A DNA stretch of 64,000 nucleotides from a virus (IMGVR_UViG_3300047489_000453:62001-126000); one strand, 5' to 3'; positions 6,859 to 34,508 are shown, numbered from the stretch's first letter. Translations and numbers: made by a program. Notes: a model not told the origin generated them from the sequence alone.

Positions 6859-6914
6859 CTTAGACTCCTTTTGTTAGGTGTATTAAACATCACTACGGTA
6901 CATAAAGTCAATAA

Positions 6915-7075: not shown

Positions 7076-7199
7076 CGAGTTCAAAAAGTAAATTCCATAA
7101 TTAATGGACGTAAACTTAAATAACCTGGGTAAATAGCCTATACACTGAAATAATGTATTGACTATAATTCGTAGCTTCAATACTGGGCAGGAAAAAATT

Positions 7200-7835: not shown

Positions 7836-7837
7836 GC

Positions 7838-8236: not shown

Positions 8237-8331
8237 AAGAACTCCAGTTGTCTTAAAACAGCAAGTATGGCATTATTCTACCAGCCCGTGGTCTGGGCTC
8301 ATACATATTATGGCATACAGGCAGAGACAAT

Positions 8332-9057: not shown

Positions 9058-9059
9058 TA

Positions 9060-9830: not shown

Positions 9831-9832
9831 GA

Positions 9833-10489
9833 TCAGCCCTTTCCTTTTGACTCCGCCTTTTTAAGGGCATCCATTATTGACGCCAGAGACGGGTGCCTTA
9901 CTATCATGCCATCAGTAAATGTTACATAACCTATACAGTCTAATTCTTCAAGAGACTTTGCAAACCTGGCCAGAGCGTTATTGTTTCTAAGATCGCTTTG
10001 GTCAGGGTCGCCACAAATAATAAGCTTTCCGCCCTTGCCTAGTCTAGTGATAAAAGCTTTCAACTGCTCCCATGTGCAGTTCTGGGCTTCATCAAGAATG
10101 GCTACGCAATCATCGAAGGTCCTACCTCTGATCATAGCCAGAGGGACGATCTCCATGGTCTTTATTATCTCTTGAGGCGAGACAGTAGTTATGCGCCTGA
10201 GCACGTCCTCTACTGGAGCTATCCACGGCCCCATCTTTCTGTTTACATCGCCTGGAAGAAATCCAAGCTTTTCGCCGCACTCTACGGTAGGCCTTGTGAG
10301 TATTATTCTATGGCATTTGTTGTTTAGAAATGATGTTATGGCAAGTTTTACAGCTTGATGGGTCTTGCCTGTTCCGGCAGGCCCTATAAAGAAAAGAACG
10401 TCTTTTTTTGGAAATATAGACTCTGACTCTCTCTGCGCCTCGTTAATGGGTAAAAGTACTGGGTTAAGGTCCTTTGGCATTTTTGCCAT
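9833..10489 (-). CDS. phoH: PhoH-like P-loop ATPase
   Basis: A 218-residue PhoH-family NTPase, the SF1-like core without extra domains, as is common in phages. Walker A is GPAGTGKT (about residues 37-44), TRPTVECGEKLGFLPGD is the family signature, CVAILDEAQNCT is Walker B, and GDPDQSDL is the sensor motif. Proposed to be an RNA-linked ATPase or helicase, but the phage role is not settled. The start has GGAG seven bases upstream. A CCGGG/CCCGG hairpin and a palindrome copy lie in the leader. Confidence 0.9.
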   Translation of the reverse strand: MAKMPKDLNPVLLPINEAQRESESIFPKKDVLFFIGPAGTGKTHQAVKLAITSFLNNKCHRIILTRPTVECGEKLGFLPGDVNRKMGPWIAPVEDVLRRITTVSPQEIIKTMEIVPLAMIRGRTFDDCVAILDEAQNCTWEQLKAFITRLGKGGKLIICGDPDQSDLRNNNALARFAKSLEELDCIGYVTFTDGMIVRHPSLASIMDALKKAESKGKG

Positions 10490-10527
10490 TTTATCTCCAA
10501 CCGGGAAAGGCCCGGCATTTAGTAATT

Positions 10528-10543
10528 ATGGAAACGTCTCCAC
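10528..10543. repeat. 16-bp palindromic site, copy 2 (ATGGAAACGTCTCCAC)
   Basis: Two mismatches from the perfect site. It is intergenic, upstream of the PhoH gene and next to a CATAATTA promoter-like box on the minus strand. Confidence 0.65.
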
Positions 10544-10546
10544 TAT

Positions 10547-11140
10547 CTAACGCTGCTTGACCTCCTTCATAAAAGGAGCGTCGTCTATACGGATTAGGGC
10601 AACATTTTGTATGACAGACTCGTAAACAGGTTTTGTGTTCTTCCATATGACTAATCCAAACCTGTCATATTTCTTTCCTGTTTTATCTTTATCGTGCCAC
10701 CTGGATTCAAGCTCCGCCCACGGTATATAGCCTCGACAGTCATCCAAGGCTGGGTCCTCGAAGTACACGTTGTTAGAGTCGTAATCTATGGCTATTACGT
10801 AGTGTCCACTGTCACCTTCAAGCTCTGCTTGAGTGGAAGCCCACGCCTGCACTGTTATTATTACTGGTCGACCTGAGTCTAGATAACTTATAAGTTCAGA
10901 GTCAGACATGTCTTCATGCCATATCGTCTCAAAGCCACGTGACATGGCCGCTTGTTGAAGCTTATCCGGGCTTGTACCGCCTATTGGATCGGAATTAAGC
11001 TCCTCAGCTAGATTAAACTCGCTTTCAATACAGCCCCAGTAGTTAAACACGGAGCTTAAGACAGCTGGACCACAGGTATGGCTGCGCTGCTGCCTTATGT
11101 CTGGTAGGGGTATTCTATTTCCTCGCAGAGTCCTTATCAT
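10547..11140 (-). CDS. C39-like cysteine peptidase
   Basis: A 197-residue papain-fold protein. The catalytic Cys23 lies in SHTCGPAVLSSVFNYWG, His113 in GHYVIAIDYD and Asp129 in FEDPAL, the order and spacing of the Peptidase_C39_2 family. It has no signal peptide and no transport domain. It could process a virion protein (for example the leader-bearing proteins encoded just downstream) or cut a host protein. The gene stands alone after about 120 bases of leader with inverted repeats (AACTTAC/GTAAGTT). Confidence 0.75.
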   Translation of the reverse strand: MIRTLRGNRIPLPDIRQQRSHTCGPAVLSSVFNYWGCIESEFNLAEELNSDPIGGTSPDKLQQAAMSRGFETIWHEDMSDSELISYLDSGRPVIITVQAWASTQAELEGDSGHYVIAIDYDSNNVYFEDPALDDCRGYIPWAELESRWHDKDKTGKKYDRFGLVIWKNTKPVYESVIQNVALIRIDDAPFMKEVKQR

Positions 11141-11262
11141 GGTGGGCTCCCTGCAAGTTAAGGTTTAAGATGTAATAACGAACTACTAATATCCTACCCG
11201 ATTAGTAGTACGGATTAAAGAATTATGGTAAAAAATGACGTAAGTTATTAATTTACAACAAC

Positions 11263-13164
11263 TTACATATAGTTAAGGCTGTTCCTATAGGGCCCAGTTT
11301 GACTCATATAACCCTGGTTCATGGCGGCAGTGACTGGATTACCTTGCTGCTGGGCGCTTGAGGCGCCTCCGCCCATCAATCGACTAATAGCGGCTCCGCC
11401 TAGCAAGCCTCCGCCTGCTAATAGAGCCCATTTGGCCCATGGGTTATTTTGAAAAAATTCTAATGCTGGAAGCGTGTATCCTGCAGCCATTCTACGGCCT
11501 TCACTTTGAGCCGCTAGCGACGAGCCATAATTGCCTAGCCCTTTAACTAACGGCGTTACGGGGCCTTTGAATCGATCGGCTACTGCTTTTGAAGTTTCGT
11601 ATAACGAGCTCAAAGGAGAGGTCTTCAAACCAGTTGCGTATTGTACAGCTTCTAATGGATTCTCCTTAGCCCATTGAACTTTTGCTGCGTCAAAGCTTTT
11701 TGAGGTTCTGTCTACAAAATTGTTAAAGCCTTGGCGCATGTTAGTAAAATTAGGCCTATTAACGTCCTCCCTTACTCTGTTCATTGCTTCTTCGTTGCCA
11801 AACAATCCTCTAGCGGCGTCATATACGCCAGCCCCTGCCCCTCTTAAAGCATTAGTAGTTGCTGGGCTTCTTACGGTATCAACAAAACTAGGTTTTTGCG
11901 GCTGGGCTGCGCCACTATTAGACGAAGACGTTAAGCCTCCAACTATTGGACCGAATGCCGCAGTGCCTGCAGAGCCTGCAGGGCCTGAAAGCGAGTCGGC
12001 TGTGGCGCCTAGAACATTCTTGGCCCCTGTGTAAGTTTGCTTAAAAGCATCAGACATAGGCCCCGCTGCATTAGATAACTGTTTTTGCAGTGGTTTGTAC
12101 TTACGATAAGCCGCAATAGCGCTTGGTGAATATCGGCGCTTACTTGCATTATCTACAATACCCTTGCCTATCGAATTGGCTCCTTGCCAAATAGATTTTG
12201 CCGCATCTAGTGGGTTAGACGGCTTACCGGCTCCCTGAGCGGCGACGTCTTGTATGGCTTTTAGCTTGTCTTTGTCAAAAGGCTGGCCTAGAGAGCTAAA
12301 GTCAAAGTTAGGCCTAGCAGAAGTGTCAGCCGCTGATTTTAGAAGGTTTAAAAGCTCTGATCTTTTTCCAAACATAGATCCGCCGGTAGGGTTCACGCCA
12401 AACGTGCTTCTAGTTGCGCCTATTAGAGCCTTTCTGGCTGACGAGGCCCGTAGCTTCTTGCTAAGAGGCATGACACCGGCTCCAGGAGATGACTTTCTAG
12501 CTCTAGGCAATCCATCAGATGGATCGAAGTTAACTACGCCATCTTTAGAATCACCTGCACCCCTATTAGGACTGGTTACTACTTCGGCTAGTTTTTGCAG
12601 ATTGGCATCTTTAGACCATAAGCTAATAAGCCTGCTCATGGCTTTCTTTTCTCCGTTTTCTTCCATTTTTTCTAGTTTTTTGTAATAGTCTTTGTCGTCA
12701 GTTAAATGATCCATGGCTATTTCTTTAGCCAGGTCTTTATTAACAGTGTGCTCTCTTTCGTGATCGGCCCCCATCTGAAGCGACTTAGCCGGGAAGTCGC
12801 ACGGCCTCTTATCGTCAGCTGCGCCGCCAGGAACTATATCCTGGCTAGATCTAGCTTTAGGCTTGCTATTCTCAGTGTCGCTACCATCCAGGCAGCTACC
12901 TGAGCTACTTTGGTCAGTGCTTTCGGGGTTTAACTTTTTTTTTAAAGCTTTGGTAGCCTCACTCATAGCTTCAGCAAGCTTGCTTATGGCGTTTGCTGCC
13001 TTATCTGCTGGCTTTGAATCTTTTGATTTGCCGTCTGCTACGTGCTCTGGAAGCTTTTCGTCTTTTGTTTCTTTGGCCCACTCGTCACAATTCCAAGAGC
13101 CAGCCTCTCCTTTCTCTTTCAAAGCATAGCATAGTCTACGTTGTGCTTCTGATTTAAACGGCAT
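11263..13164 (-). CDS. Large probable virion-associated protein (633 aa)
   Basis: The beginning PFKSEAQRRLCYALKEKG is a motif found at the start of many uncharacterised tailed-phage proteins. The middle is low-complexity, rich in Ala, Ser, Gly and Asn with many lysines, and probably flexible. Near the C-terminus WALLAGGGLLGGAAISRLMGG is a glycine-rich hydrophobic segment, as in its neighbours. The start has TAGGAG seven bases upstream. The company of the leader-bearing proteins at 17-25 kb suggests an internal or ejected virion protein; this is inference. Confidence 0.65.
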   Translation of the reverse strand: MPFKSEAQRRLCYALKEKGEAGSWNCDEWAKETKDEKLPEHVADGKSKDSKPADKAANAISKLAEAMSEATKALKKKLNPESTDQSSSGSCLDGSDTENSKPKARSSQDIVPGGAADDKRPCDFPAKSLQMGADHEREHTVNKDLAKEIAMDHLTDDKDYYKKLEKMEENGEKKAMSRLISLWSKDANLQKLAEVVTSPNRGAGDSKDGVVNFDPSDGLPRARKSSPGAGVMPLSKKLRASSARKALIGATRSTFGVNPTGGSMFGKRSELLNLLKSAADTSARPNFDFSSLGQPFDKDKLKAIQDVAAQGAGKPSNPLDAAKSIWQGANSIGKGIVDNASKRRYSPSAIAAYRKYKPLQKQLSNAAGPMSDAFKQTYTGAKNVLGATADSLSGPAGSAGTAAFGPIVGGLTSSSNSGAAQPQKPSFVDTVRSPATTNALRGAGAGVYDAARGLFGNEEAMNRVREDVNRPNFTNMRQGFNNFVDRTSKSFDAAKVQWAKENPLEAVQYATGLKTSPLSSLYETSKAVADRFKGPVTPLVKGLGNYGSSLAAQSEGRRMAAGYTLPALEFFQNNPWAKWALLAGGGLLGGAAISRLMGGGASSAQQQGNPVTAAMNQGYMSQTGPYRNSLNYM

Positions 13165-13221
13165 TGCTCGACTCCTAAAATTTATTGCATTAAAAATTCT
13201 AGCAAACTGCAGAGGCAGGCG

Positions 13222-13956
13222 CTATAGGTTATTTAGATTGAAAAACTTTCGATATCTAGCGGCCTTAGCCTGGGTTCCAGTGTAAGTTACTCCTTTGTCG
13301 GTGAAGTCCGTAGCTGGATAATACCCAAACAAATTGTTTTTTGGCACTATGTTTGATTTAAACTTTGCCAGCAGGCCCTCATCTAATATTGCAAAGTTCT
13401 TATTGCAGTAGTTCATAACTTCTAAGTCTAAGCACCACATAAGCTTAGATGGTTTTAATAAGTCGCTTGCAACTTGATTTACCGTGCTTACGACATCTTT
13501 TCTAAAGAAATTTACCATCATGTTTTTAGGCCTGGTCTTATCTACAAAGACCCTTGGCAGCCTGTACTGGTGATACTTACTAAAGATGTCGTTTATTCTT
13601 TTAATGTCTGGCTTTTTTATAGCAACAACGTCTACGTCAGTCAGCCCGACGTGGTCATCTACGACAGGCATTGAAAGCCACCTGCTTAGCGCGTAGTAGC
13701 CGTAGCAAGCTTTAGGTCTTTTATCCTTTTCTGGCAGCTCTATCTGTGAGAAGTTTGCGTTTATTTCTTCAAAAGTTATTGGGTCGTGGGTAATAAGTAT
13801 GTCATTGTCTGAGCAGTACTTGTCTACAGATTTATTCTTAGGGCCTACAAACCTTAAAGAAAATCTGGCGTTTGGCCAAAACTTCTTTATAGAAGTGTGC
13901 CAATTTAGAAAAAACAAATCAAAATATACCTGCTCTGCTGCAGTGTGAAATATCAT
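13222..13956 (-). CDS. Glycosyltransferase-like protein (GT8-like)
   Basis: A 244-residue protein of GT-A type. YGYYALSRWL, then VGLTDVDVVAIKKP with a DxD-like pair, match transferases that read a nucleotide sugar. Its start codon overlaps the stop of the FkbM gene (ATGA), so the two are translated together. It belongs to the glycan block of 13-17 kb. Confidence 0.6.
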   Translation of the reverse strand: MIFHTAAEQVYFDLFFLNWHTSIKKFWPNARFSLRFVGPKNKSVDKYCSDNDILITHDPITFEEINANFSQIELPEKDKRPKACYGYYALSRWLSMPVVDDHVGLTDVDVVAIKKPDIKRINDIFSKYHQYRLPRVFVDKTRPKNMMVNFFRKDVVSTVNQVASDLLKPSKLMWCLDLEVMNYCNKNFAILDEGLLAKFKSNIVPKNNLFGYYPATDFTDKGVTYTGTQAKAARYRKFFNLNNL

Positions 13957-14579
13957 GAAGGGATATAAATCCTCTCGTGCATTATTGATTCATATTTTGT
14001 GTAGTTTCTTTGAGCAAGCCAAGACTCTATGTCTGCGTCTTTAAACCCAAACCTTTCACCGTGGCTCATCCATTCCAAGGCAATTACTGGTCTATATTTC
14101 TCTATGGTAACAGCCGAGCCTCTTAGAGCAGGAAGCTCCCAGCCTTCTATATCGAAATGGATTAAGTCGCAGCCTTCAAGCCCCAGGTCGTCTACCATTA
14201 GAGTGGGTATAAGACCGGTAGTCTCAGGTATTATTGAATAACATCCGATGTTCTTTTTGCTGTTGGTCAGGGCTACGAGCTGCCTGCAGTCTCCTATGCA
14301 CGCCTGCTGCTTAAAAACATTAGCAGCAGAGGCGTTTAAGGTAAGGCAATAAAAATTAAGATTGTCGGGCTCAAATGTATAAACGGACTTAAATATGTTT
14401 CCGTAAAGCTTAGGATAAAAGCCGCAGTTACCGCCGGCTTGTACAGCTACATTTTTATTTTTGCAGTGTGACGAGATTATTGACGGTAAGTCTTTTTCTC
14501 TTTGAAGCCAAGGCCAGCATTTCATGTCTTTAGAGGGCCAGTACCAGCCGTCTTTTAAAATAACTTCTTTTTTTAGCAT
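13953..14579 (-). CDS. FkbM-family methyltransferase
   Basis: A 208-residue class I methyltransferase. VAVQAGGNCGFYPK is motif I, TFEPDNLNFYCLTLN is the FkbM signature after strand 2, and DLIHFDIEGWELPALRGS is motif IV. FkbM enzymes in surface-polysaccharide clusters O-methylate sugars. It follows the GT9 gene and is coupled by an ATGA overlap to the next transferase. Confidence 0.85.
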   Translation of the reverse strand: MLKKEVILKDGWYWPSKDMKCWPWLQREKDLPSIISSHCKNKNVAVQAGGNCGFYPKLYGNIFKSVYTFEPDNLNFYCLTLNASAANVFKQQACIGDCRQLVALTNSKKNIGCYSIIPETTGLIPTLMVDDLGLEGCDLIHFDIEGWELPALRGSAVTIEKYRPVIALEWMSHGERFGFKDADIESWLAQRNYTKYESIMHERIYIPS

Positions 14580-14604
14580 TTATGTGGCCTCTTGAGTTTT
14601 CTGA

Positions 14605-15381
14605 TTATACCTTACCGGCTTTCAGGGCGTATACCCAATCTCTTATGATTTCAGGAGTTATTCTGTTCATTGCCGCCGTACAGTGCGAACACTTTATCTT
14701 CATTCCACAGGGCGTACCACCTGTGAATATGTTTACGTGGATTGGGTATCCAGTCTGAACTGGGGATATGTAGCCGCCAAATATTACCACCGCTTTCTTA
14801 TTTACAGCAGCAGCCGCATGGTGCAGCCCTCCTTCCGGTAGAACGCATAGCGCTATATTTGATATCAAGGAGGCGGCATGCCTAAAGCTCGGTGGCTGTA
14901 TTACATTTATACCTTTTATCTTTTTGTATTCTGGTTTTGAGATCTGTACCCAATTGACATCTGGCGCCAGGCTTACTAGCTTTTCCCAGTTAGGCCAGCC
15001 CCAATCTTTGTTTACAGTGGCTATTTGTTTTAAGTTTGGCTCTATTATTACAGCGTCTCTACCTATCTTGCCTGCATTATCAATACCGTACTTAATCTCC
15101 TCGTCTGTAAAGAAAAACTCTCCAACAGAAGGACCGACGTTGGTCCACGTCCTTTTTTCTTTTGTCTCACTGGCCCTATATCTTCTTCCTGCGTTTGCGC
15201 CTATCCAGTGTACAAGTGCGCCCCTTTTGACTTCTTCAATGGTTGCCATATTAGGATTATTGAAAAATACTTCCGACCATCTCTGGCGGTTTTTATCCAT
15301 TTTTACGGCAATTTTACGATTAATGGTCTTGGCGAGTATTTTTACCTCACCAGTAACCATAAGGTCGTCACCTAGCCCCAT
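14605..15381 (-). CDS. Family 9 glycosyltransferase (heptosyltransferase-like)
   Basis: A 258-residue GT-B protein. The C-terminal half holds the family pattern SLISNIALCVLPEGGLHHAA and KKAVVIFGGYISPVQTGY, where heptosyltransferases bind the sugar nucleotide. It is shorter than bacterial enzymes (about 320-350), and the N-terminal domain begins MGLGDDLMVTG. The start has AAAGGA seven bases upstream. A cysteine pair at the C-terminus (KCSHC) could bind metal. Confidence 0.75.
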   Translation of the reverse strand: MGLGDDLMVTGEVKILAKTINRKIAVKMDKNRQRWSEVFFNNPNMATIEEVKRGALVHWIGANAGRRYRASETKEKRTWTNVGPSVGEFFFTDEEIKYGIDNAGKIGRDAVIIEPNLKQIATVNKDWGWPNWEKLVSLAPDVNWVQISKPEYKKIKGINVIQPPSFRHAASLISNIALCVLPEGGLHHAAAAVNKKAVVIFGGYISPVQTGYPIHVNIFTGGTPCGMKIKCSHCTAAMNRITPEIIRDWVYALKAGKV

Positions 15382-15392
15382 GACTCATTCCT

Positions 15393-17216
15393 TTACATTT
15401 TCATACGAAATTTTTTATACCATACGGCGAACATAACTATAGTGAATAGCTCTTTTTGGGCATTTAGCCCAGGTCCGGCTGACGGCTTGCCGCTTGCCTT
15501 TTTAGGACCGATATGGTTTACATTATTTAAATATTTGTTGTCTATATCTGCGGAGTTTATTTCGAATATTTCCATTATTTCCCGGTCACTAAGAATATCT
15601 CTGAAATAAGCCCTTATAGGTGAATTCTTCTTGGCCGGGTAGGCCTGAGTGCCGATTACCCAATCGTCAGTAGGAGCCCTCCAGCCTGTCTTGTTTTTAG
15701 TTGTTATAAACTCTGGGAGCTTTGAGTTGTAAGCAAGCCTTAGTAAGTTTTTATTGCACTGATCCCATCTTAGCTTGGAATGCTTTGGAGCGGCTTTTAG
15801 GTTTCCAGGTATACTTCTAGCAAAGTTTTTAAAAACATTACACATCATTGGAAACCTGGCTTCCATTCCAAAGGCCATTCCCAACTTGTCGTTTCTTACT
15901 AAAAAATCCTCACTTAAAGTGTGGAGGCTCTCTATGTACATTATGTCATTAAGATTATTACCAGTCAGGCCGCCTTTTGGAATCCACGACATAAGATACT
16001 CGTGCTGATCTTTGTTTGTAAGCGCCTTTGCTGGATCTAATAGTTTTCTGTGGTGTAGCCTAAGGCTGTCAAGCCTGTCATTAAAAGTGGCATGATTAAA
16101 GTAGTGCTTGTACCCGGCTAGCAGTTCGTCTCCTCCGTCACCGCTCAATGTGACTATTACGCCGTTGTCGCGCAGAAACTTATTAGTGGCGTAATAAGCC
16201 GAGTAACTTTTACCCTGCCTAGGCTCTTCAAGGGCCAGAACCGCAGACTCAAGATTGTCCAGCCAAGCCTGTTCGTTTATTTTTATTTCTTTATGGTCAG
16301 AGCCATAAAGCTCTGCAAGCTGCTTGGCTAAGACGGCATCCTCGTTATGGTTGCACTTTTTATGCGGAATATCAAATTTTGTGGAAAAGGTATGGGCGCT
16401 TATACCAAGTGATTTTGACATTTCGTAAAGAACAGACGAGCTGTCCATGCCGCCGCTAAGAAACAAGCCTACCTGCCTGCGCCCCATAAGTGTCATACTT
16501 ACGGCTTGTTTAAGCTTATCGTGAAGTAGAAGCGGAATGTCTTCTTCGTTCGAAGTAAATGGGTCTATCGGCCTGTTATTAATATTACTGCTATATTTGA
16601 CTCCTGTTCTTATATCCAGCTCTATAATTTCACCGGGTACAAGCCTGCTTATATTCTTGAAGCACGTTATTGGCCCGGCCGTCAGGCCTGAATAATAGAA
16701 GTGCTTGAACCCGTCTATGGACACTTTTCTCTCAAACCCAAGCTCAAGTAAGCTTGCCACCTCTGACGAGAATGCGAGTTTATTTTTTAGATATCCATAG
16801 AATAAAGGCTTGGCTCCGTTACTATCCCTTGCCAGTAGCAGCTTCTTTGATTTCTTATTATAAATAGCCACGGCAAACATACCGTCGCACTCGTATAAAA
16901 AGTCTTTTCCAAACTTTTCATACCCTTTGATTAAAACTTCGGTGTCTGTATCAGACACGAAGTCGCCGCCTATCTTAGCTCTAAGGGATTTGTAGTTATA
17001 GATTTCGCCGTTGTATACCATGACACTTGATTCAGTGTGCCATGGCTGGCTTGATTGTGGAGGCGTATCCACTATTGATAAAAGATTATGCCCCAAGGTT
17101 ATAAAGTCGTCGCCCCATATACCTTCGCCGTCTGGGCCTCTGTGTCTTGCTTTTTTAACCATGGCCGGCATGGCGCCGGTGTCATCTTTCCAACAAAATC
17201 CATGAATACCGCACAT
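15393..17216 (-). CDS. asnB: Asparagine synthetase B (glutamine-hydrolysing)
   Basis: A full-length 607-residue enzyme that makes an amide from a carboxylate using glutamine and ATP. The mature nucleophile Cys2 (MCGIHGF) fixes the start. The glutaminase domain has HRGPDGEG, MVYNGEIYNY and SDTDTEVL. The synthetase domain has the PP-loop FLSGGMDSS at about residue 255, and TLSGDGGDELLAGY. In polysaccharide clusters such enzymes often amidate sugars rather than make free asparagine. Its place between GT9 and leader-bearing proteins fits glycan modification. A diverged copy of the 16-bp palindrome (two mismatches) lies at 17057-17072. Confidence 0.92.
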   Translation of the reverse strand: MCGIHGFCWKDDTGAMPAMVKKARHRGPDGEGIWGDDFITLGHNLLSIVDTPPQSSQPWHTESSVMVYNGEIYNYKSLRAKIGGDFVSDTDTEVLIKGYEKFGKDFLYECDGMFAVAIYNKKSKKLLLARDSNGAKPLFYGYLKNKLAFSSEVASLLELGFERKVSIDGFKHFYYSGLTAGPITCFKNISRLVPGEIIELDIRTGVKYSSNINNRPIDPFTSNEEDIPLLLHDKLKQAVSMTLMGRRQVGLFLSGGMDSSSVLYEMSKSLGISAHTFSTKFDIPHKKCNHNEDAVLAKQLAELYGSDHKEIKINEQAWLDNLESAVLALEEPRQGKSYSAYYATNKFLRDNGVIVTLSGDGGDELLAGYKHYFNHATFNDRLDSLRLHHRKLLDPAKALTNKDQHEYLMSWIPKGGLTGNNLNDIMYIESLHTLSEDFLVRNDKLGMAFGMEARFPMMCNVFKNFARSIPGNLKAAPKHSKLRWDQCNKNLLRLAYNSKLPEFITTKNKTGWRAPTDDWVIGTQAYPAKKNSPIRAYFRDILSDREIMEIFEINSADIDNKYLNNVNHIGPKKASGKPSAGPGLNAQKELFTIVMFAVWYKKFRMKM

Positions 17217-17269: not shown

Positions 17270-17983
17270 TTATTTGGGTGGTTGGTAGTTAGGGCTTAAA
17301 ACGCCGCTTCTATATAAATTATACAGGTGGTACGGCAAAACAGGGGCGGCCGGCGCTGGGTGCATTCCAGCGCCGTGAGCTATAGCATCGGCGGTGGTGT
17401 GACCGGCTAAGTGCCCCAAAGCTTTAGGAGCATGCTGAACTGCTAGATTTGAAGCTGTATGGCCTACGGTACTGGCAAGATGAGGCTGAGCTGCCTGTGC
17501 CGCAGGTGCGAGAATCTTGCCTCCATAATAACCTGCTGTGCGGCTAGCCCCTGATATTCCTAAAGTTGACGCCATCGTATTAAAAGCGTGCTGGTCTTGC
17601 TCGCTTTTTTGCCTAAATTTTTCGGCCTCTAGCCCTTTAGTAGGGAAGCTTTTTTGCTCCCCAAGCCTTGCAGTTTCTTTAAGCCTTTCCAGGTCTTGCT
17701 GCTTAGTAGTCAGGCCTTTATGGCTAAGATAGTCACTGGCTTGCTGCTGCATAGTAGGAGCTTGCCTGGACGCCCACAGCTCATTTAGCGTAGGGTTTTT
17801 AGATGGACTAAAGGAGCGATCTGGAGGAACAGGAAGCGGTCGACCTCTACCGTCTAAAGGTCTTATACGGTCAGGGCTATTATACGGCTGAGGGGATTGG
17901 CCGCCTGGCGCTACCGGTTGATTGCCTGCGGCAATTTTTCCCATAAGCTTGCCAAAGTTTTCCGCTCTTCGAATATTAATCAT
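17270..17983 (-). CDS. Leader-bearing probable internal virion protein (237 aa)
   Basis: It begins with the shared leader (INIRRAENFGKLMGKIAAG). The rest is rich in Pro, Gln, Ala and His: residues 25-80 are a proline-rich linker, 85-125 a charged helix, and 130-225 an alanine- and glycine-rich region. No enzyme motif. Other copies of the leader start at 18636, 19717, 20622, 21196, 23582 and 25282. It is the last gene of this run. Confidence 0.65.
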   Translation of the reverse strand: MINIRRAENFGKLMGKIAAGNQPVAPGGQSPQPYNSPDRIRPLDGRGRPLPVPPDRSFSPSKNPTLNELWASRQAPTMQQQASDYLSHKGLTTKQQDLERLKETARLGEQKSFPTKGLEAEKFRQKSEQDQHAFNTMASTLGISGASRTAGYYGGKILAPAAQAAQPHLASTVGHTASNLAVQHAPKALGHLAGHTTADAIAHGAGMHPAPAAPVLPYHLYNLYRSGVLSPNYQPPK

Positions 17984-18009
17984 GTATCACCTGTAAGTAT
18001 TGTATAATT

Positions 18010-18636
18010 CTAGCGTTCTAGGCTTTTACTCACTGCATTATTAACTGCTTTTTGAGCACTTATTGGATCTGTTAGTTTAATTGAACTGCCTGCTACGTTT
18101 CTAGCGTAATTACCCCAAGATCCTGCAGGAGTAAATAGGGCTTTAAGTACGCTTGGGCCTTTGTATGCCAGCGCCAAATCACCACTTGAACCTATTAACC
18201 CATGTCCTCTTTGTAGATTGTAATCAATCATTGCTTGGTGTTTAGCTTTGTTTTCAGCTTCCCATGCCTCTCTTTGCTCTGGACTGGCTGCGGCCCACCT
18301 GCTTTTATCGGTAGGAAAATACTTTCCGGCTGCTTGGTCTTTTGCTCTTGCAGTGTCAGACATCTCATAACTTGCATTGTACTTTTTGGGGGGAGAGCCT
18401 GATAAACTTGGAGCCGCATTATTAGCCTGGTTCCACATCTTATTTTGTTGTTCAAATCCTAAAGGTTGTTTTGTTTCTTTAAGGTTTACGCTTTTAACAG
18501 GAGCCCCCAGTTTGCCAGGAACTGGTGTTACTGATAAAGGGTCGGCAGAATTGGCGGAAAGATTGTCAGCTGCTATCTTTCCCATAATCTGGCCAAATCT
18601 AGCCGCTTTGGTAAATCTATTCATTATTTTACTCAT
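18010..18636 (-). CDS. Leader-bearing protein (208 aa)
   Basis: The leader reads MNRFTKAARFGQIMGKIAAD, where the ATG at residue 5 could be the real start. The annotated ATG overlaps the preceding stop (ATGA), which favours coupling. The body is polar and low-complexity with one charged helix (about 110-140) and a hydrophobic patch near 165-180. No known family. Probably an internal or ejected virion component, by its shared leader and position. Confidence 0.65.
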   Translation of the reverse strand: MSKIMNRFTKAARFGQIMGKIAADNLSANSADPLSVTPVPGKLGAPVKSVNLKETKQPLGFEQQNKMWNQANNAAPSLSGSPPKKYNASYEMSDTARAKDQAAGKYFPTDKSRWAAASPEQREAWEAENKAKHQAMIDYNLQRGHGLIGSSGDLALAYKGPSVLKALFTPAGSWGNYARNVAGSSIKLTDPISAQKAVNNAVSKSLER

Positions 18637-19193
18637 GAGTCAGCCGTTAGCTTACTTACGTTGTTTTCACCAGTTACGTTTTTCTTTTTGCAGCCAACCG
18701 GAATATAGAATCCTAATTGTGGAGACGTCTCCAAACCATAGCTCCGGCGTATATCCTCAAGATTATCACTTTCTATTGAAATTGCCCATAGCTTTTCGTA
18801 CTCACCGTTAGCTGGGAGCTCTACTATTGGGCCTAAAGTATAGTTATAAGCGTGCCCTCTTTCAGTTACTTTGTCAGGGCCGCCAATCTTATCTACTTCG
18901 GCTTTGGTCATTACTTTAATAGCAGCCTCAGTACGATTATTACGCACAACAAACTCAGCGCCAGGCTCATGTAGGGCATCGAATACTCCTTTGATTAGGG
19001 AAGCTGGGACAGTAAGTTCTATGCCGCCGTTAGGGCCTGCTTGAAGCCTACCGGATAAAGCATGCACAGCCGTATGTGACCCTGCTTTGCATAGATGCCC
19101 GTGAGCCTGACCTAATGAAAAGAACTCGGAGTCGATGAGCTTTGCTCTTTCGATTCCTTTAGATAAACCCAACGATAGCGGCGGTATGGTCAT
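18633..19193 (-). CDS. Hypothetical protein (186 aa), start region duplicated nearby
   Basis: It begins MTIPPLSLGLSKG and lacks the leader of its neighbours. A central segment (GIELTVPASLIKGVFDAL and following) looks like a compact alpha/beta domain. No family recognised. It is coupled by ATGA overlaps to the genes on both sides. A 14-codon remnant of its first 11 codons lies at 19707-19751. One copy of the 16-bp palindrome lies at 18719-18734, coding for LETSPQ. Confidence 0.65.
   Translation of the reverse strand: MTIPPLSLGLSKGIERAKLIDSEFFSLGQAHGHLCKAGSHTAVHALSGRLQAGPNGGIELTVPASLIKGVFDALHEPGAEFVVRNNRTEAAIKVMTKAEVDKIGGPDKVTERGHAYNYTLGPIVELPANGEYEKLWAISIESDNLEDIRRSYGLETSPQLGFYIPVGCKKKNVTGENNVSKLTADS
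18719..18734. repeat. 16-bp palindromic site, copy 3 (GTGGAGACGTCTCCAA)
   Basis: One mismatch from the perfect palindrome, inside a coding sequence. Confidence 0.8.
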
Positions 19194-19717
19194 TTGACTG
19201 AACCAGGTATAAGCCCTTTAGGATTAAAAAGGTAAGGTAATGCACTGGCGGCATTGCTATTGTATTCGTTGTTAACTCTCATACGAGAAGCTGCTATACC
19301 ATTAATATCTCTAGGTGGATTTGCCCTGTTCATATTGGCTAGTTCGTTATAGTGCTTAGCGTTAGATAGTTCTCTTACTTTATCAGATACGTTAGCTGAT
19401 CTCCACGGACTTGCCGCTGGTGAATCGCTGCGCTTGGGATCTTTAGCGACAGATAGTTGGTTTCTGTTATCTCTATTAGTATTTAACCAACTGTTAGGAT
19501 TAACAAATCCACTGGGGTCTTTTAATCCCCACAGCTGGCTTCTTGCGTCGCCTGTACTAAGACTTCTTCTTTCAGCCTCGCCCGGACTATTAACGATTGT
19601 ACTGATGCCGTTGCCTTTAGGGACATTATCGTGCTGGGGGTTAAAGATATCATTTCTAGGACGCTTGGCCATTCTGCCCATCATTCTTCCAAACTCTTCT
19701 GCTTGTTTAATACTCAT
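19190..19717 (-). CDS. Leader-bearing protein (175 aa)
   Basis: Leader SIKQAEEFGRMMGRMAKR, then an Asn-, Ser- and Arg-rich, probably disordered body without known motifs. The DNA of the leader matches the start of the gene at 19780-20622 over about 35 bases without a mismatch, so one leader was copied from the other recently. There is no own ribosome site; the ATG lies inside the end of the 14-codon remnant ORF, which would feed ribosomes into it. Confidence 0.65.
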   Translation of the reverse strand: MSIKQAEEFGRMMGRMAKRPRNDIFNPQHDNVPKGNGISTIVNSPGEAERRSLSTGDARSQLWGLKDPSGFVNPNSWLNTNRDNRNQLSVAKDPKRSDSPAASPWRSANVSDKVRELSNAKHYNELANMNRANPPRDINGIAASRMRVNNEYNSNAASALPYLFNPKGLIPGSVK

Positions 19718-19751
19718 TTGATAAACCCAATGATAGTGGAGGTATGGTCAT
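19707..19751 (-). pseudogene. Remnant of the MTIPPLSLG gene start (14 codons)
   Basis: It encodes MTIPPLSLGLSNEY and stops. The first 11 codons repeat the start of the gene at 18633-19193 with a few silent changes. It keeps an AAGGA site seven bases upstream, and its stop overlaps the ATG of the next leader gene. It now looks like a translational leader left by insertion of the 19190-19717 gene. Confidence 0.6.
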
Positions 19752-19753
19752 TT

Positions 19754-19812
19754 TTAATCCTTATAAGTTACCTTGCCAATTACTCTAGGAAATCCTTATA
19801 AGTTACCTTGCC
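19754..19812. repeat. Imperfect direct repeat (about 28 bp, two copies)
   Basis: The segment ATCCTTATAAGTTACCTTGC occurs twice, about 34 bases apart. One copy is the 3' end of the gene at 19780-20622 (GKVTYKDF), the other lies just beyond its stop and supplies the ribosome site of the remnant. This is a scar of local duplication. Confidence 0.75.
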
Positions 19813-20622
19813 GATAACTCTACGACTCCCTCCATCAGAGCTTGGAGGTAGGGCTATTTCTCCGCCCCAATTCATATATGGACCTGCTTTTTGTCTACTA
19901 TAAGTGTTAGGGTATTTACTAGTATCGAGTATCTGATTCACAAGATGTCCGTAGTAGCTCCTCTCGGCGTCTGTTCTAGCAATGTTTTCTCTAGCCTTTA
20001 TGATGAGTGGCTCTGAATAGTACGGAGGTTTTTGTCTCAACTCTCTTGCAAGGTCAGCCCGAGCTCTTTGGTGCTCAAAGTCAGCTCTGTTTTGTTTTGT
20101 AGTTGCGTCATCAAGGTCACTTTGATAACGGAGACCTTCGAACTCAGGTATGCGGTTTAAATCAATCGGGTAAGGTTCATCTGGGTAATAATTTTTATAT
20201 TTTTTACGATAGTAGTCATCCATCTCTGCTTTTGTAGGCTCTCTAAACCTATGCCTACTCCAGAAATTAGATGAGGAATCATCTGATTTAGGGAGGCTAG
20301 AAGGTGAACCTTGCAAGTGCTTTTTAACTTCCCTTTCTAGCACTCTCTGTTCAGCCTGTCTATACTCGTCGTCTGAAGGCTTACTAGCAGGAATTAGCTT
20401 ACCAGCCAAGTGGCCCAATCCGGCTCCAGCCAAACCACCTAATCCTGCCCCAATCATAGCTCTTCTCAACTTATTCTCTTTGGTTCCTTTAAGCCAGTCA
20501 TAGATAGCGGTGCCTCCGCCACCTATAGCTGCCCCTGCCAAGGATGATAACATTGTAGGGCTTAAAGCTACTGCCCTTTTACCCATCATTCTTCCAAACT
20601 CTTCTGCTTGTTTAATGTTCAT
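19780..20622 (-). CDS. Leader-bearing protein with glycine zipper (280 aa)
   Basis: Leader NIKQAEEFGRMMGKRAVA. Residues 22-75 hold two glycine-zipper hydrophobic segments (SLAGAAIGGGGTAIYDWL and MIGAGLGGLAGAGLGHLAG) separated by a basic loop, a layout seen in proteins that insert in membranes. The remainder is charged and helical with many Arg, Tyr and Asp. No enzyme motif. A membrane-inserting virion protein is a fair guess. The start has AGGA nine bases upstream, overlapping the end of the preceding gene. Confidence 0.65.
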   Translation of the reverse strand: MNIKQAEEFGRMMGKRAVALSPTMLSSLAGAAIGGGGTAIYDWLKGTKENKLRRAMIGAGLGGLAGAGLGHLAGKLIPASKPSDDEYRQAEQRVLEREVKKHLQGSPSSLPKSDDSSSNFWSRHRFREPTKAEMDDYYRKKYKNYYPDEPYPIDLNRIPEFEGLRYQSDLDDATTKQNRADFEHQRARADLARELRQKPPYYSEPLIIKARENIARTDAERSYYGHLVNQILDTSKYPNTYSRQKAGPYMNWGGEIALPPSSDGGSRRVIGKVTYKDFLE

Positions 20623-20626
20623 TGCA

Positions 20627-21196
20627 TTAAATTCCTATTGTTCCGAGGGCTTTTTCATACCAAGGTTTTTCTTCGTCTGAATGGAGTAGCGGAAGCGCTT
20701 CTCTAAGATATTCAGGCTTCAGTAAACCATACTCTTTTAATACTTTAGCAGTAGCCAATAAGTTTCTATTGTAGCGTGAAGCGCCTAAGTGGCCCATACC
20801 GGCCCCTGTCAAGCCGCCCATAGCTGCAAGGCCTAACGACTTACCTAGCCCCTGCCCTGTGTACTTACCGGCTACCCCGCCTGCAGCAGCTCCTACAAGT
20901 CCTTTAATGATAGACTCAGCCTTTGGGCTTCTCTTCATTTCTGAGAACTCATAGCCTTCGTCTTTCTTATCAGCCAACTGCTTGATCATGTCGTTAAATG
21001 TTCCTCTGGAAAGACCGGCTGATTCCAAGGTATCAGTAGGGTCAACCAAGGCCCTGGCTTGATGGAACATGGACAAAGCGTTGGACATCTGCTGCGGGCC
21101 AGTACCTCTAGCAACAGAGCCTAAGTCCCTAAAGGCCGCTGTCTTAGCCAGATTTGCTCCAAACTTAGCCGCATTAAGGTACCTGTTATTGGACAT
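20627..21196 (-). CDS. Possible in-frame internal gene (189 aa) with leader
   Basis: An ATG at 21196 inside the peptidase gene has AAGGA seven bases upstream and opens with NNRYLNAAKFGANLAKTAAF, a clear version of the leader otherwise found only at protein starts. It also has its own glycine zipper (GAAAGGVAGKYTGQGLGKSL). Either two genes fused by loss of a stop, or a second product is made by internal initiation. Confidence 0.5.
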   Translation of the reverse strand: MSNNRYLNAAKFGANLAKTAAFRDLGSVARGTGPQQMSNALSMFHQARALVDPTDTLESAGLSRGTFNDMIKQLADKKDEGYEFSEMKRSPKAESIIKGLVGAAAGGVAGKYTGQGLGKSLGLAAMGGLTGAGMGHLGASRYNRNLLATAKVLKEYGLLKPEYLREALPLLHSDEEKPWYEKALGTIGI

Positions 21197-22261
21197 GATT
21201 GTTTCCTTATTTAAAGTATCCGCAGCTTTGGCCATTGGCTTTTTAGCTTTTGGCTTTTTCTTCTTTGCCTTTTCTTTTTCCCTAATAGCGTCCCTAAGCC
21301 TAGTAAGCTTTGTAAGGGCTAGTTCTTTGGGAATATTGTACTCTTTTGAATAAGCGTCGGCGTACTCGTCCAAGTAACTTTGTAAGGCCTTTTCATCTCC
21401 AAGAGATTTTCTACTGCCCAATGCCGAGCCTATAGAATAACCCAGCGGAGTTCCAATACCTTTTCCTACAACGTTACCAGTTAAGGCTCCTAGTATGCCG
21501 TAGCCTAGTGGCCCAGCCGGTGATCCTCCGCCGATTGCTGAGCCCTTCATGGCGCCCAATATACCGCCTCCAACTGTTCCAAGAGCGCCGCCTAAACTAT
21601 GGCCCCAATAACTGCCAAGCCCCATAGGTTTGGTTCTAGCCGATTGCTCCAGGGTCTTTACTAAAAGATCTGGGTCAAGCTTTGTCTTGGCCGCGCCGCT
21701 TAGTAGTCTATCTTTGCCTTTGTTCCAGGCCGCATGTTCCATCCATAAAGTAGGCGCAAATCGCTGATATAGGCCAGCGAGTGCGCTTCTTACTTTATCC
21801 TCAGGATCGTATTCATTAAAGTCAGTAGCATGGCCCAGCTCGTGCATCAATACGCCTGGGTTTCCAGAAGGAAGCCATACCTCGTCGGGAGTGCTCCAGT
21901 AAGCGTCGCCAAGCTCCTGGGTGTGAAACTGCTCTTTAGGAAAGTATTTGTTTTTAGCTTTTTCATCTATGAACGGGTTTTGAAACGAGGCTTTATCTTC
22001 GTCAGACACCCTTGGGTTCATTTTGACGCGCTTTTCTAAGTCATCAAGACGTGAACCATGCAGGCCTATTCTAACGTTATTGAGCGCATTATGGGTGGCG
22101 GCAGCCTCCATAGCTTTTCCGATAGCCTTAACTTGTTTAAGATTAATAGTGCCGCCTTCATTAGCTCCGCTACCTGTAGGCCAGGCTGGATCGTAGACAG
22201 GCATCTTATAGTGCTGATAAGCGTCTATGGCTTTTTTTATCATGTCTTGTACATTTGTCAT
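20627..22261 (-). CDS. Glycine-zipper protein with HExxH metallopeptidase motif (544 aa)
   Basis: The start is taken at the ATG at 22261, 10 bases after GGAGGAG and overlapping the stop of the previous gene; the frame is open to 22330. The motif LMHELGHATDF (H140, E141, H144) is a zinc-peptidase signature. It is followed by a long glycine-zipper region (GGALGTVGGGILGAM to GYSIGSALGS), a lysine-rich linker (KAKKKKPKAKK), and then a second leader-like stretch and a second glycine zipper. The C-terminal third can be made alone from an internal ATG at 21196. Probably a virion-carried peptidase that reaches the host envelope; the substrate is unknown. Confidence 0.7.
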   Translation of the reverse strand: MTNVQDMIKKAIDAYQHYKMPVYDPAWPTGSGANEGGTINLKQVKAIGKAMEAAATHNALNNVRIGLHGSRLDDLEKRVKMNPRVSDEDKASFQNPFIDEKAKNKYFPKEQFHTQELGDAYWSTPDEVWLPSGNPGVLMHELGHATDFNEYDPEDKVRSALAGLYQRFAPTLWMEHAAWNKGKDRLLSGAAKTKLDPDLLVKTLEQSARTKPMGLGSYWGHSLGGALGTVGGGILGAMKGSAIGGGSPAGPLGYGILGALTGNVVGKGIGTPLGYSIGSALGSRKSLGDEKALQSYLDEYADAYSKEYNIPKELALTKLTRLRDAIREKEKAKKKKPKAKKPMAKAADTLNKETIMSNNRYLNAAKFGANLAKTAAFRDLGSVARGTGPQQMSNALSMFHQARALVDPTDTLESAGLSRGTFNDMIKQLADKKDEGYEFSEMKRSPKAESIIKGLVGAAAGGVAGKYTGQGLGKSLGLAAMGGLTGAGMGHLGASRYNRNLLATAKVLKEYGLLKPEYLREALPLLHSDEEKPWYEKALGTIGI

Positions 22262-22262
22262 T

Positions 22263-23582
22263 TTAGGCGCTCTCCTCCACTCTTCTTTTCTTACCAAACT
22301 TTTTATCGACAAGTTTGTTAACTCCCTCAATATCAGAGGGGTCCATGTCGTAAATTTCTTTTTTAGCTATTCCAAGGTTTATAAGATCCTTAGTCGGCCT
22401 GCTAGTTAAAAATGGGCCGCCCCATTCTGGGTGCAGGTGAGTGGCTTTGAGCCCAGTGTACGAGTCTTCTGAGACATGTTTATTTAACAAATTAGCCGCT
22501 AATAGGGCTGCATAGTCGCCAAAGTTGTATTGCTTATCAAACTTGCGACCGCCTCTAACGTGATCAAGGGAGCCGCCTAAGTTGTCAAAGACTGAACTAG
22601 CGGCATAATTTAAATAATTTCCTGGAACTTCAGCCGGGTCGTCAACGAATAACCTTGTTAGAAACCTTGGTTCCTTATTTCTAACTATACCAGTTGGCCA
22701 TATTTTGCTTGAATCGCCGCCTATGCCGTTAATTTTTAAAGGCAGGTCGACAGCCATCATAAGCTGTTTTGGTGTTATATCCCTATAAAACAAACCAGCT
22801 CTTTTATTAAAGCTAGGAGCAAACGGACTATTCAAAGAGAAGCCGTTTGAATACAGGTCGTTATAGGCATTCATGTGATGAATGTCGTTTAGTCTGCTTA
22901 TTGCTCTTAGCTTTCTCATAGACTCGTCCCTGTTATATACAGGGTCAGACAAAAGGTCTCGCTTGGTAGCCCCCTGAGGAAGCCTTAGCATTAAATCTTT
23001 TATTCCTTCGTTCTGGGCTTTTCTAGAGAAGTAACCGCCTATACCTGTTAGCCCGCCAAGACCTAACCCGCCTATAAGAGAGGCCCCAAGAATTTTATTA
23101 AGATTAGTATCTTGAAGCTGTGAGCCCAGTGCGGCTCCGCCTAAAGATCCTGCGAGAGCGCCACCTAGGCCGTGAAGTAAGGCGCCTTTAGCTGGGCTGG
23201 AAAGAAGTTCCTGGGCTGGAGTGCCGTAAGACGAGAAAATACGCGGAAACCATCTAGATTCCCCCTCCTGCATTTTCTTTTTATCTTCTTCAGTAATGTC
23301 CCTTCGCTCGGCTACTGGCATGTTTTCTTGGACGGCCAGGTTCTTTATACCGTAAGCGCTTGCCCATTTATAAGACAAGTTAAACGGCTTATAGCCTGCA
23401 GCGCTGACATGGGTGCGCCTGGCAAGATCTGACTTTCTAAGGTTTTTGGGCATCCTGACTGGTTTTTTGGACTCATGCTGCCCTTCTTCCTTGTCGTCTT
23501 CCTCTTCGTCTTTTTTAACTTCTTCCGCAGCTGCTTTTCCAAGATACCTTGCGAACTCGGCTGCCTCGTTAAACCTATCCAT
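22263..23582 (-). CDS. Leader-bearing glycine-zipper protein (439 aa)
   Basis: The N-terminus DRFNEAAEFARYLGKAAAEE is the leader, followed by an acidic/lysine-rich stretch (about 21-45). Residues 130-190 form a glycine zipper (GLGGALAGSLGGAALGS and ILGASLIGGLGLGGLTG). The C-terminal half is a soluble domain without recognised motifs. It is coupled to the peptidase gene downstream. Probably an internal virion protein. Confidence 0.65.
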   Translation of the reverse strand: MDRFNEAAEFARYLGKAAAEEVKKDEEEDDKEEGQHESKKPVRMPKNLRKSDLARRTHVSAAGYKPFNLSYKWASAYGIKNLAVQENMPVAERRDITEEDKKKMQEGESRWFPRIFSSYGTPAQELLSSPAKGALLHGLGGALAGSLGGAALGSQLQDTNLNKILGASLIGGLGLGGLTGIGGYFSRKAQNEGIKDLMLRLPQGATKRDLLSDPVYNRDESMRKLRAISRLNDIHHMNAYNDLYSNGFSLNSPFAPSFNKRAGLFYRDITPKQLMMAVDLPLKINGIGGDSSKIWPTGIVRNKEPRFLTRLFVDDPAEVPGNYLNYAASSVFDNLGGSLDHVRGGRKFDKQYNFGDYAALLAANLLNKHVSEDSYTGLKATHLHPEWGGPFLTSRPTKDLINLGIAKKEIYDMDPSDIEGVNKLVDKKFGKKRRVEESA

Positions 23583-23600
23583 GGTTATCTCCGGTTAAAA

Positions 23601-24857
23601 TTAGGCCATTCCAATTCCTGGTGCAGCCTGGTCTCCCTTGACGATTGATAATATCTGCATGATGGCTTTCTTTTTTAAGTCATCACTATTAAGTAACATG
23701 GGCATAATCCGCCTTAGAGCGTCTGTCTTTCTAGGATACCTGTCACTCATATAGTAATCTAATACCTTCTGTGCGTCAGCTGGAGTAGCTACTGGTTTTC
23801 CAAGATCTTTAGAGTAATAGCGTTTGGCTTCGCTAAGGTGGGCACCCCATTCAGAAGGATTTCCAACATATTTTGCGGTAGTATCAAACTCGCTTGGAGA
23901 CATATTTATCTTTTTTAAAAATTTTTTCATTACTTCGATTTGAGGTTCGCTTATGATCTGAGTCATATTTGTCGAATCGGCAGGCCCAAACGCAGCGTGG
24001 GTCATCTCGTGCCCCAGTATAGAGTACCTGTCTTTTGCGTCAGGATTTAATACAACGTCCCCATAACTACTGAATGGTCGTCTAGGAGCGGCTCCTCCTA
24101 GGTTCTCTCTGCTAACTTTACCTCCATAGGTTGATCGGCCAGAATTGACTATCTTTATCATCTTGTCGATGTCGCTACCTTTACTGCTTATGTTAATAGG
24201 GGCGTCGAGGTCTTTTTGATTAAAAGTAACTAGGCCTAGCTTTTTAGCATCGTCTCTGTACTTTTCGGCATTTTCAACGGCCTTGTCAAATCCGCCCTCT
24301 GTGTCTTTGTAAAAAGGACTTACCACTTCTCTTAAAGAGGCCTTGGCCGAAGTCTCATCTGGAAACTTGAATCTATTTAGTTCGTTAATCAGGCTAGTGC
24401 TAGCCACTTGCCTTTTGTCTTTTGATGGTGGCTGATATGTAGTTTCGCCAGGATTTCTGTTTGGTTGTTGGGGAGTGCTGCCGCCTCTGGCCTGCCCTAA
24501 AGAAAGTAAAGATTTACGCAACGAAGGCACGACTCCTACAGCTCCGCCTATACCGGCGCCTGTAAGACCTCGACTAAGTGCTTCTCGAAGTCTTGACTTA
24601 TCTTTCATTTCGTAGACAGGATCACCATCCTTGTCATACATTGGCTTGCCTTTTTTATCCTTCTTCTGAACATATTCAGATCTAGGAAACAAGGCTCCAT
24701 ACAAAGCGCCAACAGGCCCACCGATAGAGGCACCTATGCCTGCCCCTCTAAGAGGGCTTTCGTCCATATTTAAATCCCCAAACCTGTGAGCCAACCCTAC
24801 TATGGGGGCTATTAGTTTAGGAAGAGGCGCAGCGGACTTGTTGTGACCTTTGTTCAT
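23601..24857 (-). CDS. HExxH metallopeptidase-like protein with glycine zipper (418 aa)
   Basis: Residues 36-56 (LRGAGIGASIGGPVGALYG) and 95-112 are glycine-rich hydrophobic segments. The motif LGHEMTHAAFG (H283, E284, H287) is a zinc-peptidase signature, and NPSEWGAHLSEAKRYY about 50 residues later supplies glutamates for a third ligand. It lacks the short leader of its neighbours. It is the second predicted peptidase of this run and may act on the host envelope during entry or in capsid maturation; neither is shown by sequence. Confidence 0.65.
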   Translation of the reverse strand: MNKGHNKSAAPLPKLIAPIVGLAHRFGDLNMDESPLRGAGIGASIGGPVGALYGALFPRSEYVQKKDKKGKPMYDKDGDPVYEMKDKSRLREALSRGLTGAGIGGAVGVVPSLRKSLLSLGQARGGSTPQQPNRNPGETTYQPPSKDKRQVASTSLINELNRFKFPDETSAKASLREVVSPFYKDTEGGFDKAVENAEKYRDDAKKLGLVTFNQKDLDAPINISSKGSDIDKMIKIVNSGRSTYGGKVSRENLGGAAPRRPFSSYGDVVLNPDAKDRYSILGHEMTHAAFGPADSTNMTQIISEPQIEVMKKFLKKINMSPSEFDTTAKYVGNPSEWGAHLSEAKRYYSKDLGKPVATPADAQKVLDYYMSDRYPRKTDALRRIMPMLLNSDDLKKKAIMQILSIVKGDQAAPGIGMA

Positions 24858-24868
24858 TTGCCTATACC

Positions 24869-25282
24869 TTAAAACAACTTCTTAGGAGTTTTACTTTCAA
24901 TAACAGGAGACTTAGCCGGTAAAGGCTGTTCCTGGGGTAACTTTATATTAGACCAATCTATATCCTTTGGCGCCATACTACCTTGCGGAGTAAACGTAGC
25001 CCCTGGCTGGATTACGCCGTCTTTCATTATGGCCTTGGTAGTACCCGGACCAGTAGCACCTGCTGCCGCCCTGGCTGCTTGACCTTTTCTATATAGTTCC
25101 TGCCTAGTTTTATATATGTCGTTTTCTCTCCAGGTATAAGCCTTTCCATCTTCTGGCTTAGGCCTTGGTAGAGTTTCTGGAGTATATCTAGGCATATATG
25201 GCGGGCCTGCTAACTCTAATGGAGCGCCTGCGGCTTTTCCCATTCTTGCTCCAAAGCTTGCCGCTTTTTGAAATCTATTCAT
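24869..25282 (-). CDS. Leader-bearing proline-rich protein (137 aa)
   Basis: Leader NRFQKAASFGARMGKAAGA, then a Pro-, Lys- and Ala-rich body with no fold apparent (ELAGPPYMPRYTPETLPRPK and so on). Probably disordered. It sits at the 5' end of the leader-gene run. Confidence 0.6.
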   Translation of the reverse strand: MNRFQKAASFGARMGKAAGAPLELAGPPYMPRYTPETLPRPKPEDGKAYTWRENDIYKTRQELYRKGQAARAAAGATGPGTTKAIMKDGVIQPGATFTPQGSMAPKDIDWSNIKLPQEQPLPAKSPVIESKTPKKLF

Positions 25283-33041: not shown

Positions 33042-33419
33042 CTAAGACATGCCGCCAGTGTCTTCTCTGAGGATATCCTCTTCGGAAACATTGACGGAGT
33101 AGATCTCTATGGCCTCGGTGTCTTCCATGGCATGAAACTTATGGTTAACGCCTGGCATTACTTTGATAGAGTCGTTGGGTCCAAGGTATAGAATTGAGTA
33201 AGGAGTTTTATCTCCCTCTTTAAATAGCTCGACGGCCAACTTACCCGATATGATGTAAAACTGGTTCCACTTATGAGTATGCCTGTGATTTGAGCAGAAC
33301 CCGCCTTTCTTTATGGTTATATGGCAAGCCTGGAATACGTTGTCTATGTGCATGATATAATTCATGCCCCATAGCTTTTCTTCCTGCCTAATTTTTATTA
33401 TCTGTATGTTCTTGTCCAT
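33042..33419 (-). CDS. Cupin-fold protein (125 aa)
   Basis: Single-domain cupin. CSNHRHTHKWNQFYIISG carries the H-x-H metal ligands, and PGVNHKFHA the second motif. The first strand is KLWGMNYIMHID. Similar cupins isomerise or epimerise sugars. It opens the glycan block of 33-40 kb. A TATAAT-like box lies about 25-30 bases upstream. Confidence 0.7.
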   Translation of the reverse strand: MDKNIQIIKIRQEEKLWGMNYIMHIDNVFQACHITIKKGGFCSNHRHTHKWNQFYIISGKLAVELFKEGDKTPYSILYLGPNDSIKVMPGVNHKFHAMEDTEAIEIYSVNVSEEDILREDTGGMS

Positions 33420-33465
33420 ATTGCACCTAGGCCTGGCTACAACTTAATTATATCTTATTTTATCA

Positions 33466-34506: not shown

Positions 34507-34508
34507 AA

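Follow-up and report, generated by a model that had tools for sequence, protein, structure and literature searches.

A short leader common to unrelated proteins of a large phage: a candidate capsid-targeting propeptide ending in K-x-A

The DNA considered here, hereafter the window, comes from a large uncultured phage and is a stretch of 64,000 bases (62001-126000) of the IMG/VR virus record IMGVR_UViG_3300047489_000453, which is 136,787 bases long. Between 17.2 and 25.3 kb, the minus strand of the window carries seven in-frame copies of a leader of about 18 residues, with the consensus MNRxEKAAAFGxMMGKxA (also written in the form MNRLEKAAAFGAMMGKRA), attached to protein bodies that differ from one another. 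A sequence-only reading of this DNA had placed the leader at the start of proteins beginning at 17983, 18636, 19717, 20622, 21196, 23582 and 25282; all seven starts are present and bear it, six of them as the beginning of a protein and the one at 21196 inside a longer open reading frame (ORF). The genes of the cluster, with their leaders and the means by which these were detected (a residue pattern and hidden Markov models, HMMs), are as follows, in window coordinates.

17270-17983, minus strand: candidate cargo protein of 237 amino acids (aa), no known family; leader MINIRRAENFGKLMGKIA at 17930-17983 (pattern and HMM)
18010-18636, minus strand: candidate cargo protein of 208 aa, no known family; leader MNRFTKAARFGQIMGKIA at 18571-18624, preceded by MSKI, four codons past the first ATG (pattern and HMMs, including one trained on other phages)
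18633-19193, minus strand: 2H-phosphoesterase-like protein (below the Pfam cut-off), no leader, ending in ..NNVSKLTADS
19190-19717, minus strand: candidate cargo protein of 175 aa, no known family; leader MSIKQAEEFGRMMGRMA at 19667-19717 (pattern and HMM)
19780-20622, minus strand: candidate cargo protein of 280 aa with a glycine-zipper-like stretch; leader MNIKQAEEFGRMMGKRA at 20572-20622 (pattern and HMM)
20627-22261, minus strand: HELGH putative metalloprotease module M1 (N-terminus MTNVQDMIKKA), an internal leader and a glycine-zipper body; leader MSNNRYLNAAKFGANLAKTA at 21137-21196, in the ORF 22261-20627, with its own ATG and a ribosome-binding-like AAGGA upstream
22263-23582, minus strand: candidate cargo protein of 439 aa, no known family; leader MDRFNEAAEFARYLGKAA at 23529-23582 (pattern and HMM)
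23601-24857, minus strand: HEMTH putative metalloprotease M2, with the N-terminus MNKGHNKSA (KxA at residues 7-9) in place of the leader
24869-25282, minus strand: candidate cargo protein of 137 aa; leader MNRFQKAASFGARMGKAA at 25229-25282 (pattern and HMMs, including the one trained on other phages)

The pattern by which the leader had originally been described, FxxAxxFGxxMGKxA, is matched strictly by only two of the seven copies, whereas the shared leader itself is real in all of them. A looser working pattern, A..[hyd][GA]...[GA][KR].A, returned the seven leader frames and one chance match beside a stop codon from the whole 136.8-kb record. The leader HMM that the sequence-only reading had proposed found exactly seven copies in the record (E 1e-7 to 5e-11) and four to six, on other proteins, in each of five sister phages, which together with the window phage make up a leader-bearing clade of six. 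When the HMM was trained solely on the leaders of other phages, five of the seven copies ranked on top, three of them significantly (E 1e-7, 2.5e-5 and 7.5e-4) and two at E 2.7-3.9; the copies at 19717 and 21196 were missed, and reversed and shuffled translations gave nothing below E 3. De novo clustering of N-termini likewise recovered a leader group of six. Codons differ in 58 of 115 like-residue pairs between leader copies (69.9 expected if independent), and such use of different codons for like residues indicates that the leader is conserved mainly at the protein level and not simply as recently copied DNA. The leader is amphipathic, with a hydrophobic moment (muH) of 0.36-0.59 (genome 90th percentile 0.40), and its most variable position among the 18 is residue 17 (2.69 bits), which lies between a near-invariant K16 and an invariant A18.

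Behind the leader, the proteins of the window phage are as unrelated as had been claimed: once the leaders are masked no mutual similarity is left, the only within-phage match of masked bodies being the leader of 19717 and 20622, left unmasked. Pfam and PHROGs assign most of the candidate cargo proteins to no family. Part of the 17270-17983 product resembles the C-terminal half of L119:13532-14584 (30% over 93 aa), and the body encoded by 24869-25282 shows 60% identity, over 88 aa, with a protein of the sister phage G003 that also bears the leader. An ADP-ribosyltransferase reading of L119:13532-14584 was set aside, as it relied on an N-terminal motif seen by eye (YHGT..I..GL) with no Pfam or PDB sequence match; an N-terminal stretch of gp96 of Salmonella phage Arash (HHGT..I..SGL) also resembles this motif by eye. 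Relatives of the M1 module were found only within the clade, and its structure prediction was unusable (pLDDT, the predicted local distance difference test, 40), while the 2H protein itself returned no relatives and no PDB sequence match. Altogether, the cargo and cluster proteins include a NUDIX protein, a P-loop kinase-like protein, a DUF6321 protein and two HExxH proteins, a set that we infer to fit enzymes delivered to the host better than parts of the shell.

Comparison of the six phages indicates that the leader is a module in its own right, gained or lost between phages and used as a joint between swapped domains; this modularity, like the leader, the clade and the KxA signal with its conservation (below), is read from sequence. 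The DUF6321 protein of the window phage (genome 50501-51397) starts with MADKSKPGLWAN and has no leader, and its relative in G004 (L120:9163-9771) begins with the leader, after which comes SANKPGLWAN. The M1 module and its leader are followed by a glycine-zipper body in the window phage, by M2 in G003 and by another body in G025, so that M2, a separate gene in the window phage, is fused behind M1 and the leader in G003. Of the internal leaders, two lack a start codon (in L117 the codon is ACG, and L121:10864-12873 has none) and are thus readable only as part of a longer protein.

Further leaders with the same ending occur in the sister phages. A second leader of 18 residues, MRSFNKLANLHRVFFKRA, starts one to three proteins in each of the five; its bearers, all different proteins, include L120:13091-14904, L121:3697-7516, L119:5190-6293 and 15048-15536, and L117:932-1378, and none was found in the window phage's own genome. 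A third family, with MAFNYKAIQQVKEA-like starts, is found on three adjacent and different proteins of G006 (L126, G006 94882-96714), and nearly all members of the second and third families end in KxA. By contrast with these, an N-terminus common to gp48, gp117, gp139 and gp207 of phage Arash (IEFYGDTLEVV..ARRLVENLGL) was rejected as a leader, as it looks like a true folded domain. Similar sites lie at domain joints: the 2H-phosphoesterase module ends at VSKL[A/S/T] in five phages, the protein stopping just afterward in the window phage and G001 and continuing at VSKLA into differing modules in the three others, and in G003 further SKLA sites precede NUDIX and DUF4269 domains. In one protein of 1303 residues (L121:15158-19069), KLA sites separate a 2H phosphoesterase, an acylphosphatase and other stretches.

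The significance of this ending became apparent in the head and tail module, which lies at genome positions 1-62 kb, outside the window, and includes the following genes, in genome coordinates.

36364-37293: major capsid protein (MCP), phrog_2522
38324-39622: scaffold-like protein
39776-41215: gp21-like protease
47680-57457: split multi-subunit RNA polymerase (beta/beta'), within the head module (L003), with an SNF2-type helicase also in that module

Relatives were chosen by their MCP, and 80 viral contigs, none longer than 235 kb, were retrieved in this way; the MCPs of phage Arash and of Vibrio phages D69, D148 and D181 are about 29% identical to that of the window phage. In an unbiased scan of head-module proteins for over-representation of every residue pair and spacing (about 1,500-1,900 tests), KxA ranked first in the window phage (85 observed vs 44.8 expected), Arash (56 vs 28.1), D69 (55 vs 26.9) and G015 (73 vs 42.5), and sixth in G006 (101 vs 68.3); in tail modules and other genes, including those for replication, it was near or below expectation. 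The leader's terminal KxA is common to the N-termini of the MCP, the protease and the scaffold. Of 64 MCP homologues, 98% retain it about 25 residues into the protein, with R, Q, N, T or E in the middle, and the corresponding position reads LVKEA in the Arash capsid protein gp226 and LTKEA in that of D69. In the protease, K38 and A40 (KxA at residues 38-40) are invariant in 41 sequences, and of two N-terminal sites in the scaffold, one is retained in 76% and the other in 90% of sequences, the middle residue being one letter in at most 26%. Among the ten leader-cluster proteins, seven have KxA within their first 30 residues, against 2.0 expected. A fixed K and A with a free middle residue, in the leader as in the head proteins, is the form that P3 and P1 preferences of a maturation protease would take.

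A candidate protease for that role is encoded next to the scaffold. The AlphaFold2 model of the 39776-41215 product (pLDDT 81) aligns best to gp21 of phage T4 (5jbl; Z 10.1 over 146 residues, 3.0 A), followed by herpesvirus proteases at Z about 5, so that a T4 gp21-like fold is predicted. Foldseek alone gave nothing useful for this model and missed the gp21 match; the identification therefore draws on one aligner, the genome position, a weak PHROG match of the G006 homologue to 'head maturation protease' and the residues H61, H102 and S164, invariant in the 41 protease sequences. The conserved candidate cleavage site ends in Ala, not Glu.

Since the leader ends in the KxA also found on the shell, the scaffold and the head protease, it very probably serves as a detachable address label by which cargo is loaded into the head. 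The more specific reading that we favor, and consider probable, is that the leader is an N-terminal capsid-targeting propeptide of the T4 kind, cut by a KxA-specific prohead protease. The earlier suggestion of an address label cut after GKxA thereby gains strong independent sequence support, KxA being the dominant motif of the head module, conserved close to the N-terminus in both the capsid protein and the gp21-like protease, and a joint in cargo polyproteins. As we infer docking, cleavage, packaging and ejection to proceed, the leader's amphipathic helix (MNRLEKAAAFGxMM) would attach its protein to the scaffold or shell while the prohead assembles, the gp21-like protease of the phage (39776-41215) would then cut after the Ala of G-K-x-A, and the body released in the head would enter the next host together with the DNA. 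Further substrates of this protease would be the MCP, the scaffold and the protease itself, each cut at KxA sites, and cargo polyproteins, which it would divide at SKLA joints and at internal leaders.

Known systems offer precedents for parts of this scheme. The T4 proteins IPI, IPII, IPIII and Alt carry short N-terminal propeptides (10 residues in IPIII) that direct them to the prohead core, where gp21 then cuts them, and the targeting and processing residues of the T4 capsid-targeting sequence are separable (PMC9026906). The leader resembles such a sequence in being a short N-terminal peptide common to otherwise unrelated proteins; those of T4 are removed by the phage's own prohead protease. 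Unlike them, it has another sequence, ends in K-x-A where the T4 motif ends in Glu, also serves as an internal joint in fused ORFs, and exists in the sister phages alongside at least one other leader family. The likeness is one of working, and no common descent is suggested. In SPN3US and phiKZ, giant phages with a virion RNA polymerase, packaged proteins are cut at one tripeptide motif; the head proteins are cut at AxE or SxE ([A/S]xE), always after Glu, and gp53 and gp54 of SPN3US have identical first 15 residues (PMC5694885). There, however, several propeptides exceed 100 residues and the shared N-terminus is on paralogues. For DarB of phage P1, the first 30 residues suffice to bring a reporter into the head and the cargo is believed to enter the cell, but DarB is one 250-kDa protein, and the part of the account consulted describes no leader shared by several proteins (PMC9024508). 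The described relatives Arash and D69, D148 and D181 resemble the window phage in their head module, with KxA enrichment and a protease homologue (gp222 in Arash), whereas the leader was found neither in Arash nor in the D69 sequence examined (50 kb). Mass spectrometry of Arash virions detected the RNA polymerase beta subunit most, together with the helicase, the protease homologue and many others (PMC10585845), which shows that such particles package many proteins, not that leader-bearers are among them. The reported coverage of the Arash capsid protein, 86.64%, is compatible with a missing N-terminus and proves nothing. Like their Arash counterparts, which are abundant in virions, the split RNA polymerase and SNF2-type helicase of the window phage are encoded in the head module, which by analogy suggests that the window phage carries a virion RNA polymerase. 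No paper on the leader or on a KxA prohead site was found in the open-licence literature.

Several points weigh against the favored reading. Glu is the residue after which the known prohead proteases of T4, phiKZ and SPN3US cut (PMC5694885), so a cut after Ala would be a different specificity. Several leaders are internal, and targeting by a free N-terminus cannot apply to those. Some copies deviate from the consensus (LAKTA, MGRMA, and GKMFGA in one sister phage), and the 2H protein lies inside the cluster without a leader. Scanned with the leader pattern, neither 2.9 million viral contigs nor 84,980 prokaryote genomes gave a convincing copy outside the clade (in the prokaryote genomes, no match), and the leader HMM gave none in 20 more distant relatives at the E level of the window-phage copies; a leader absent outside six phages is not essential for the phage family. 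The Arash list of virion proteins (PMC10585845) is long, at 116, and may include contaminants.

Among the alternatives, the strongest is that the packaging tag is retained on the cargo, which it docks to the scaffold or shell, and that KxA is a docking motif for one partner, not a cut site. It would account for the many KxA inside head proteins (17 in the protease and 13 each in the proteins at genome 42003 and 44800), more than a cleaved mature protein easily tolerates, and would leave internal leaders usable as docking points; we nevertheless regard it as unlikely, given the conserved KxA at the capsid propeptide position, near the protease N-terminus and at polyprotein domain joints, and the resemblance of a fixed K and A with a free middle residue to known protease motifs ([A/S]xE). 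Less likely by some way is an address elsewhere, for instance to the host membrane, to the virion RNA polymerase or to a phage compartment inside the cell, with the KxA ending a coincidence: an amphipathic leader would also suit binding to a membrane or a partner, and some bodies have glycine-zipper-like stretches, but two distinct leader families of the same phages both close with KxA as residues 16-18, and it is specifically in head modules that KxA is enriched. That the leader forms the beginning of a folded domain common to its bearers, the outcome named by the sequence-only reading as speaking against it, or the product of a recent gene-family expansion is highly improbable, for although the nearly identical leaders of 19717 and 20622 reveal local duplication, the masked bodies of the window phage are dissimilar, homologues exist with and without the leader, and it also stands mid-protein between unrelated modules.

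Elsewhere in the window, many glycosyltransferase-, methyltransferase- and asparagine-synthase-like genes were noted by eye at 3401-17216 and 33042-39637, suggesting roles in surface glycans or nucleotide sugars, and a radical-SAM-like protein (CAFGCTYCYTE), possibly spore-photoproduct-lyase-like, at 58446-59573, also by eye.

If the capsid-targeting reading is correct, the proteins that a dark phage packages, and probably delivers to its host, could be recognized directly from sequence, in a widespread phage family for which hardly any cargo is annotated. KxA would add a protease specificity to the Glu-cutting set of the phages compared here, it would allow maturation sites to be predicted for the capsid, scaffold and protease of described relatives such as Arash, and the leader would be a short tag with which proteins could be brought into large capsids. 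More broadly, and here we see the case as evenly balanced, this family of large phages may use a KxA-specific prohead protease with interchangeable leaders and joints to turn almost any enzyme, or string of enzymes, into head cargo that is cut into separate effectors in the capsid before delivery.

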